This document shows, one piece after another, positions 40,055 to 41,308 of a DNA stretch of 64,000 nt. The DNA lies in contig JAJEKV010000030.1 of the NCBI GenBank assembly GCA_021234155.1, positions 8,179,890-8,243,889 on the forward strand. The letters run 5' to 3'. The stretch is from Isoetes taiwanensis. Lineage: Eukaryota; Streptophyta; Lycopodiopsida; Isoetales; Isoetaceae. The stretch's first letter is position 1; every line of letters begins with the position of its first letter. The notes under the pieces are model-generated. The model had not been told where the DNA came from. It made no database searches and saw nothing but the letters and a program-made list of their open reading frames with translations. The position numbers were made by a program, and so were the translations under genes.

Positions 40055-41308
40055 ATGGCCCGAACCAAACAGACCGCAAGGAAGCGTCGCCCAGGCGAAA
40101 CCACCAGCGCCACTGAGGCGGAGATCATTCGGAAGATGCTTCGTGAGAGGCTCGCGAGAGGGGGTCGTTCGCCTTCGGACGAGGAGCAAGACACGTCCGA
40201 TCTGATTGATGTCTTCAACCAGCAGGCGGAGCAGGACGAGGCCACATCACCGAACTCCATGGACGAGGAGACGAGGGTGGTGTATGAAGAAATAGAGCGG
40301 GAGATCCGACAGCAGGAACAAGCAGACCATTCAGACGCACCCACGGAGATCCTCGAGCAGGATGAGCAAGTGATGTGTCCGAGCCCGAGGTAGCGTAACC
40401 TTAGAAGGTTCATCGAAAAGTACGAAAACGGCAGTAAGAGAAGGGAAGACAAAAAGAGGAAAAGGAAGGAAGAAGAACAAAAGGCAGCAGAAGAGAAGAA
40501 GAAAGTTTAAAGGGAAGTTCGTGGGTGGGCATAAGGAGAACGAAGGACCGCCTCGGGCCAAGGAAGAGGCCGAACCCCAACATTGTCATCAAGGAGCGGC
40601 AACCCGACGAACCCCCAAACCCCTCCGACGACTCTTCTGATGGGGACTTCAACCCTAATGCTGCAGGTGGAAGCTCTTCAAGCACCCAGCGACGAAAGGT
40701 GAAGTACCGAAAGCAGCCGCACCTGAGCAACCCCAGCAAGACCAAGTGCAGAAGCCCCCTGAGTACCCGGCATGGGATAGAAAGAAGCAACCACGACCTG
40801 CCCGGGAAGCCTACGTCACCGACAGGGTGAAGATTTATGAGAGAAAGATGAGGGAGCACGAGGCCTACATGAAGAAATGGGAGGCCTACAACAAATATTA
40901 TGAAGAAAACAGGGTTAGGTTCATCGAGGGAGGGCGACCAACGAAGCAGCAAACCTTAAGGCCGCCACCACCGAAGCCCAAGGTTCCCAAGCCGCCACCC
41001 AGGAAGAAAGCTGATAGGAAGGAGGTGGAGAGAAGAGCGTTAAGGGAGATTAGACACTTCCAGCGCAGCTTCGGTCTCTTAATTCCCCGTGCCCCCTTCG
41101 CTCGGTTGGTGCGTGAAGTGATGCAGCCTACGTAACGGACTTTAGAGTCACCGGACGAGGGCTGGCCGGGCAATGCAAGAGGCGGGGTGAGGCAAAGATA
41201 GTGCAACATTTTGAAGATTCAACAGCCTGCACTATCCACGCCAAGCGGGTAACCTTAATGCGACAGGACATGAGTCTTGCGACCCGCATTAAGGGAGAAC
41301 GCCCTTAG
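40055..41308 (+). pseudogene. Histone H3 / CENH3-like frame carried by the Gypsy element
   Basis: The frame starts MARTKQTARK, identical to the histone H3 tail through Lys9, then departs (RRPGETTSATE). A charged region rich in Glu, Lys, Arg and Pro follows for about 325 residues. The end is an H3-type histone fold: ALREIRHFQRS (helix N), LLIPRAPFARLVREVMQ (helix 1, 41050-41125), AMQEA and EAKIVQHFEDSTACTIHA (helix 2), then KRVTLMRQDMSLATRIKGERP split over loop 2 and helix 3, stop 41306-41308. LLIP-APF and RVTLMR are CENH3-like, while the GERP end is like canonical H3. The spacing from helix 1 to FED is 83 bases against 81 in H3. Breaks: TAG 40391, TAA 40508, frame changes near 40510, 40700-40740 and 41130-41200. 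It could be a dead capture, or a live frame blurred by consensus errors. Confidence 0.85.

Follow-up and report, generated by a model that had tools for sequence, protein, structure and literature searches.

Histone H3-like genes are carried by hAT DNA transposons in several fungi, as described in reports on Pyrenophora tritici-repentis (PMC3538342) and on Pseudocercospora, Cercospora and Sphaerulina (PMC6710886). According to the former, the Pyrenophora protein (H3L) has an insertion in its tail and fully matches neither H3 nor CenH3 (PMC3538342). These transposons are the closest precedent for the gene analysed here, an open reading frame (ORF1) with an H3 start and an H3 histone fold in element A, a Ty3/gypsy long terminal repeat (LTR) retrotransposon of the chromovirus type in Isoetes taiwanensis. 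Element A lies in a 64,000-nucleotide stretch of assembly GCA_021234155.1 (contig JAJEKV010000030.1, positions 8,179,890 to 8,243,889, forward strand), hereafter the window. In both cases, a many-copy transposable element carries an H3-like gene. However, the fungal elements are DNA transposons whose copies are either near-identical and recent or inactivated by repeat-induced point mutation, whereas the element described here is a plant LTR retrotransposon with two diverged lineages, one of which (the sister lineage) is under purifying selection and has a new domain fused to the fold. Instead of the terminal inverted repeats and transposase of a hAT element, LTRs and pol were found in element A, with no dedicated search for inverted repeats at its ends.

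Ty3/gypsy elements of Phalaenopsis resemble element A in carrying a host-type extra ORF, which may act on host regulation; they differ in that its AlkB-type product is an RNA demethylase and the elements are Ogre-like (PMC9289625). A survey of 121 angiosperm genomes in the same source lists 15 extra domains, and a histone is not among the nine named in the text (PMC9289625). Plant chromoviruses with a group II chromodomain share with element A the LTRs, the gag-pol order and an integrase chromodomain without Y24 and Y48, but no H3 ORF is described for them in the available part of the source (PMC3350952). The word "histone" is absent from the main text of a review of additional ORFs (PMC7264820) and from that of the I. 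taiwanensis genome paper (PMC8566536). Related literature includes a 2025 review (PMC12786077) and a report on Tcn1-like elements (PMC2864245). Among the matches listed in a search of the published literature, whose coverage stopped short of preprints and most subscription papers, there was no LTR retrotransposon with an H3 gene.

Histone features of ORF1

The frame beginning with MARTKQTARK remains open for 112 codons (40055 to 40393). Its first ten residues are identical to H3 from the initial Met through K9; identity to H3 at the start ends there, and the window lineage thus has no canonical H3 tail. The fold is read over all three frames (Table 1). A frameshift-aware alignment of plant H3 with the ORF1 DNA scored 208, a value far from those of 60 dinucleotide shuffles, none of which exceeded 38, and 50 of 87 fold residues were identical to plant H3 (alpha-N, 8/11; helix 1, 8/14; loop 1, 3/7; helix 2, 15/30; loop 2, 4/5; helix 3, 6/12). 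The middle of helix 2, which an earlier note on this DNA had not listed, was found in the third frame; therefore, all parts of the fold are present in the ORF1 of the window. The Pfam Histone profile matched two pieces of ORF1 with 34.6 bits (40746–41132) and 33.2 bits (41132–41305), both above the cut-off of 26.4. The best sequence matches of the two pieces in the PDB were Cnp1 (2.5e-7) and H3 (1.5e-10). These results confirmed the exact H3 start and complete H3 fold claimed in the earlier note. Its placing of ORF1 inside a chromovirus, between the primer-binding site and gag, agrees with the LTR ends, the target-site duplication (TSD) and the Pfam pol domains. The note had named two findings that would speak against it, the lack of a significant histone-profile match and a fold confined to this copy and closely aligned to a host histone gene; the match is significant, and the fold occurs in many copies.

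The window copy itself is broken, with at least one stop and a reading that passes through all three frames. In a set of 188 proteins, its N-terminal piece matched two that are H3-like (1.7e-4 and 3.8e-4), at roughly 30% across 92 residues. In wider database searches, a read-through query matched 1184 of 7949 scored proteins, and the ten inspected among the matches listed were tandem or fused core-histone proteins. The non-histone part of ORF1 alone matched none of 6060 candidate proteins at E ≤ 0.01, and viral contigs scanned with one ORF1 piece and the integrase yielded no relatives.

Copies of ORF1 in the genome

A search of the genome (1,658,258,908 bases, 1110 records) with the ORF1 DNA gave 2083 first-look candidates. 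The best 40, which were scored, comprised the window copy and 39 others at 87%–93% identity, most of them matching over the full 1254 bases. MARTK and the fold share one open frame in two of the 39 (403 and 417 residues); the order of tail, linker and fold is therefore real as a single frame and no artefact of reading across frames. The frames of two more copies lack MARTK and are 390 and 422 residues long, and 15 of the 39 have a frame of at least 60 residues containing MARTK. The full MARTKQTARK is read in 13 of the 40 copies, and MARTK stands at the start in 32. Further copies and open frames, both raised in the earlier note, thus exist. With the integrase as query, there were 36,243 first-look candidates. 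The best 107, which were scored, are all at least 93% identical, and many lie within open frames of 1000–1600 codons; for these reasons, the family looks recently active. Two of the 39 further ORF1 copies each have one of these 107 matches about 6.7 kb downstream, as in the window.

The sister lineage emerged from a genome search with plant H3, in which the best 150 of 9022 candidates were scored: 15 places were 96%–98% identical and 135 were 71%–86% identical. The former were taken as host H3 genes (12 of the 15 places retrieved; three distinct proteins). About 50 of the 135 non-host places have open frames of at least 400 codons, and six have a stop in the matched stretch; the true number of such places, at least 135, may be in the thousands. 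From these 135, listed by H3 similarity, 20 were sampled for their long frames. All 20 ORFs are open and encode 404–425 residues from a common start: a new N-terminal domain (N-domain, about 200 residues) is followed by a charged linker and then by a near-canonical H3 fold, which in the three ORFs scanned scored 141–142 bits with Pfam Histone. The H3 tail is missing from the N-terminus in all 20, and an ARKSG motif was seen by eye in the linker of five. Outside the fold, blastp of element A pieces against the sister ORFs gave no E value below 0.7.

At 19 of the 20 sister loci, the beginning of the locus matches part of the element A LTR. The architecture downstream of ORF1 was compared at three of them (L070, L061 and L064). 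At L070+L083, it consists, in order, of gag (weak, 0.005), protease, reverse transcriptase, RNase H, integrase and chromodomain; the pieces from protease to integrase are 54%–85% identical to those of element A. At L061+L084, gag, protease, part of the integrase and a chromodomain are followed by part of an LTR, which shares 95.7% identity with the locus start, and no reverse transcriptase or RNase H matches were found downstream of ORF1. Neither pol nor a second LTR was found in about 11 kb downstream of ORF1 at L064.

Selection and retained residues

Among the 20 sister ORFs, the median pairwise ratio of nonsynonymous to synonymous substitution rates (dN/dS) was as follows: fold, 0.028 (all 190 pairs usable); N-domain, 0.067 (130/190); linker, 0.21 (185/190); whole ORF, 0.101 (185/190). 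The unusable pairs were saturated or had near-zero dS. Median dS was 0.59–0.99, and dN/dS stayed below 1 in every usable pair. Thus, the dN/dS comparison proposed in the earlier note indicated purifying selection in the sister lineage. In the window lineage, each of the two open copies was compared with the 39 remaining sequences, among them decayed copies; the nonsynonymous/synonymous ratio was 0.29 or 0.24 in the linker and 0.34 or 0.27 in the fold. For the tail, the ratio was 1.94 or 0.61, depending on the open copy compared. Special conservation of the H3 tail found no support, given these ratios and a full tail in 13 of 40 copies.

Retention was scored at nine positions that we take to form the H3–H3′ four-helix bundle, thirteen presumed DNA contacts and 19 presumed H3–H4 core residues. 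All nine bundle residues are kept in every sister copy and in the window copy. Twelve of the thirteen DNA contacts are kept in 20/20 sister copies and the remaining one in 19/20; the window copy keeps 9/13. Positions changed relative to host H3 in all sister copies are S86, S87, V89, G102, E105, T107, I124, Q125 and A135. The gene, its position, its many copies, the purifying selection and the retention of contact residues are directly supported.

Relationship to H3 and CENH3

The sister folds are identical to host H3 at 80–83 of 94 residues and to Nymphaea H3 at 79–81, and ten sister folds placed in a tree adjoin host H3 with modest support (81/78). For the two open window-lineage copies, identity was 52/93 and 51/93 to host H3 and 53/93 and 52/93 to rice CENH3. 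The window-lineage fold lies on a long branch away from both, its nearest neighbour by path being protein P0128. In both trees, ORF1 falls outside the plant CENH3 group, a placement obtained with long branches, few columns and three plant CENH3 rows. A single clade of element A and sister folds (10 of the 20) was neither rejected (approximately unbiased test, p 0.096) nor supported; P at position 135 is common to the window copy and 19/20 sister copies.

Loop 1 has the same length as in H3, without a CENH3-type insertion, in the two open window-lineage copies and the aligned sister fold. We take W at position 84 and replacement of T107 by A, C or S to be marks of plant CENH3. Position 84 is V in the window lineage and F in the sister lineage, and T107 is replaced by A in 20/20 sister copies and by S in the window copy, in line with the second mark. 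Among the proteins found with the fold (68 of 79 candidates), 19 are named as CENP-A or Cse4 type and eight as H3 or H3.3. No host CENH3 was recognised with the rice CENH3 fold among the best 150 of 7597 candidates, which ranked amid host H3 and element copies.

Structure of element A and its surroundings

The features of element A and of related sequences in the window are listed in Table 1.

Table 1. Features of element A, copy B and the empty site, with positions in the window.
Feature	Position	Strand	Evidence or remark
Copy B: last part of ORF1 fold and following spacer	6281..6805	-	tblastn 2.5e-9; score 57, shuffle maximum 35
LTR of copy B, a diverged relative	7291..8678	-	81-82% identical to element A LTRs
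Paralogous empty site of element A: flanks joined, one GAGCA, no element	27028..27835	+	12 differences/808 bases
5' LTR of element A	37806..39386	+	LTR pair, ends (TG start), TSD GAGCA directly before
Primer-binding site GGTGGTATCGAGC	39387..39399	+	one base short of what we take to be the plant initiator-Met tRNA-type site
Leader repeat, hairpin-type unit x2	39591..39845	+	
TATA-type motif CTATAAATAGA, 110 bp upstream of ORF1 ATG	39945..39955	+	motif only
ORF1: H3 start, charged linker, H3 fold; broken here	40055..41308	+	stop and frame switches
MARTKQTARK, H3 start (Met, then A1 to K9, including K4, K9)	40055..40084	+	10/10 identity
H3 histone fold, H3 residues 47-134, over all three frames	41037..41302	+	frameshift-aware alignment
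Repeat units x2 downstream of ORF1	41450..41726	+	about 41500-41709 nearly identical in copy B
Second CTATAAATAGA, 125 bp upstream of ATG at 42040	41915..41925	+	motif
ORF2 region, broken	42040..43440	+	43129-43440 matches ORF2 of sister locus L064 (8.4e-7)
gag remnants, zinc-knuckle-like stretch by eye	44302..44969	+	44302-44484 matches L084 (3.9e-9), L083 (0.005)
Protease remnant	45190..45396	+	Asp_protease_2 weak, below cut-off; 55-61% identity to sister loci
Reverse transcriptase pieces	45493..46098	+	RVT_1 28.6 bits, cut-off 29.6; 54% and 85% identity to L083
RNase H and integrase	46423..47911	+	Pfam RT_RNaseH, Integrase_H2C2, rve
Integrase end with SH3-like part and chromodomain	47896..48573	+	Chromo PF00385 4.2e-11
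Polypurine tract AAGGTGGGGAGAA	49408..49432	+	adjoins 3' LTR
3' LTR of element A	49433..50987	+	LTR ends, TSD GAGCA directly after

Element A has the LTRs with a 5-bp TSD, the order protease, reverse transcriptase, RNase H and integrase, and the chromodomain at the integrase end that characterise chromoviruses. Protease and reverse transcriptase scored below the Pfam cut-offs, and the same order is repeated at sister locus L083. The 3′ LTR ends in CA; the final bases of the 5′ LTR are altered. Pfam gave no match in the ORF2 region or the gag region. ORF2, a second protein between ORF1 and gag, is alike in element A and L064 (2721–4124), the only sister locus used for this comparison. Downstream of the leader, the first long ORF is ORF1. 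The 10-base core of CTATAAATAGA occurs just twice in the window when both strands are searched, and the two leader modules that contain it are alike, with a score reached by 9/1000 shuffles under strict scoring and by 0/1000 under gentler scoring. An internal promoter as a general feature was rejected; a TATA-like site within 300 bp upstream was present in just four of the 19 sister ORFs tested. The hairpin-type unit flanks ORF1 on both sides, and its counterpart in copy B (6570–6295, minus strand) is nearly identical despite the diverged coding part. Its folding z-scores were strong in copy B (-8.4, -3.6) and weak in the window copy (-0.4, -2.1, -0.7, -0.4). The unit may be a packaging or dimerisation signal.

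Copy B (1–8678, minus strand) has an LTR, an ORF1 remnant and the 3′ region of the family; no match to the integrase or chromodomain of element A was found for it within the window, and it looks non-autonomous. A suspected N-terminal ORF1 remnant in copy B found no support, its score being reached by 1255/2000 shuffles under strict scoring and by 56/2000 under gentler scoring. Over 33 ungapped codons of the ORF1 stretch (two gapped codons dropped), copies A and B are separated by 10 nonsynonymous and 9 synonymous changes. When the changes were placed at random, the nonsynonymous count averaged 19, and 10 or fewer were never obtained in 20,000 placements; for the codon pattern, P was 0.0085 (synonymous count) and 0.016 (third-position count). 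Because the clustering of changes within codons inflates the random-placement figure, this pattern is of moderate weight.

A segmental duplication of about 3.5 kb links positions 25573–29100 and 29625–52713 of the window. Element A and a Copia element (LTRs at 29974–30737 and 35640–36402, with 98.8% identity) are present in the second copy and absent from the first. The duplicated flanks predate the insertion of element A, provided that the duplication preceded it. They differ at 1%–3%, with 0–2.4 indels per kb, whereas the LTR pair of element A differs at 9.65% of the sites in a global alignment, with 31 indel events (20 per kb); blastn, which opened more gaps, gave 76 mismatches and 69 gap columns in 1608. 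The LTRs of one element are identical at insertion. Since those of element A are nevertheless far more diverged than the flanks, part of the differences in element A, and perhaps some of its frame breaks, may reflect a faulty consensus in this Nanopore-assembled repeat; another option is gene conversion of the flanks. In the genome paper, the assembly (1658.30 Mb; 204 scaffolds and 909 contigs) is described as built from Nanopore reads with miniasm and polished by racon and pilon (PMC8566536).

Possible function of ORF1

We lean slightly towards the view that ORF1 belongs, as an accessory gene, to the fixed gene set of an abundant chromovirus group and that its product, a host-derived H3-fold protein, would act as a nucleosomal H3 variant. 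The fold may have been captured from a host H3-family gene, and the window-lineage protein would combine the H3 start, a charged linker and a diverged fold. Because the contact residues are conserved, we infer that the protein could partner host H4, build H3–H4 tetramers and join nucleosomes as an element-made H3 variant; translation and a benefit to the element are likewise predicted from sequence. As the sister lineage replaced the normal tail, sister-type nucleosomes would lack the H3 tail marks used in silencing, or the N-domain might serve as a handle for the particle or the integrase. The most likely benefit would be such an escape from tail-based silencing or such a handle, and the arrangement points to an element that furnishes a chromatin component of its own.

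Several observations weigh against this nucleosomal reading. No single open frame holds both MARTK and the fold in 37 of the 39 window-lineage copies, and the window copy keeps 12 of the 19 presumed H3–H4 core positions. The sister sample is biased towards conserved folds by the H3-similarity ranking and the choice of open frames, although the N-domain lay outside the ranking. The role proposed for the N-domain is a guess, since the domain matched no Pfam profile and nothing in the PDB at better than 0.46. The leader before ORF1 contains twelve short upstream ATGs, the longest opening 45 codons. In the element A chromodomain, the W45 equivalent is present and the Y24 and Y48 equivalents are non-aromatic, as judged by eye; the loss of two of the three cage aromatics weakens any model in which the element reads its own H3 tail. 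A histone fold could also bind DNA or RNA outside nucleosomes.

A more far-reaching form of the nucleosomal reading, which we hold only tentatively, is a lineage that builds its own chromatin from a tail-replaced H3 variant, with nucleosomes that could not bear silencing marks and would display an element handle. It is rather unlikely that ORF1 is instead a packaging protein, coating the DNA or RNA of the element in particles and never joining host nucleosomes. Its place as the first long ORF past the leader and the retained DNA contacts would suit such a role, but the four-helix-bundle residues kept in 20/20 sister copies would be unneeded for coating alone, and a separate gag-like region exists. 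We consider it improbable that the H3 start of the window lineage acts as a tail mimic, diverting readers or writers of H3K4 and H3K9 or binding the element chromodomain. The contrast between a start identical at 10/10 residues and a fold identical at 50/87 would fit this idea; however, the full start occurs in just 13/40 copies, the tail ratio is 1.9 or 0.6, the sister lineage has no such tail and the chromodomain is missing the two cage aromatics.

Still less probable is a centromere-targeting protein derived from host CENH3. The resemblance on which the earlier note had based its CENH3 reading remains: ALREIRHFQ, LLIP..PF, EALLAMQEAAE and RVTLMR of the window lineage resemble plant CENH3 motifs, T107 is replaced in both lineages, and 19 of the 68 fold-found proteins bear CENP-A or Cse4 names. 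ORF1 differs from plant CENH3, however, in the absence of the loop-1 insertion and W84, in its equal identity to H3 and to rice CENH3, in its place outside the plant CENH3 group in both trees, albeit on long branches, and in being element-borne. Least probable of all is that a host H3 gene was captured passively, by a transduplication that brought no benefit, a reading considered for the fungal hAT copies and raised in the earlier note: the window copy and most window-lineage copies examined are broken, but capture of this kind was rejected for the sister lineage by its low dN/dS (medians 0.03–0.10 from fold to whole ORF, at a median dS of 0.6–1.0) and retained tetramer and DNA-contact residues, and the same position of ORF1 in two lineages and the A–B codon pattern also argue against it.

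Significance

Chromoviruses read chromatin through their integrase. Here, an abundant chromovirus group also carries a chromatin component, which is conserved in one lineage. This would make it testable whether an element can alter nucleosome composition to resist silencing or to steer its integration, and the sister ORFs encode a natural collection of H3 proteins with replaced tails, on which selection has acted.
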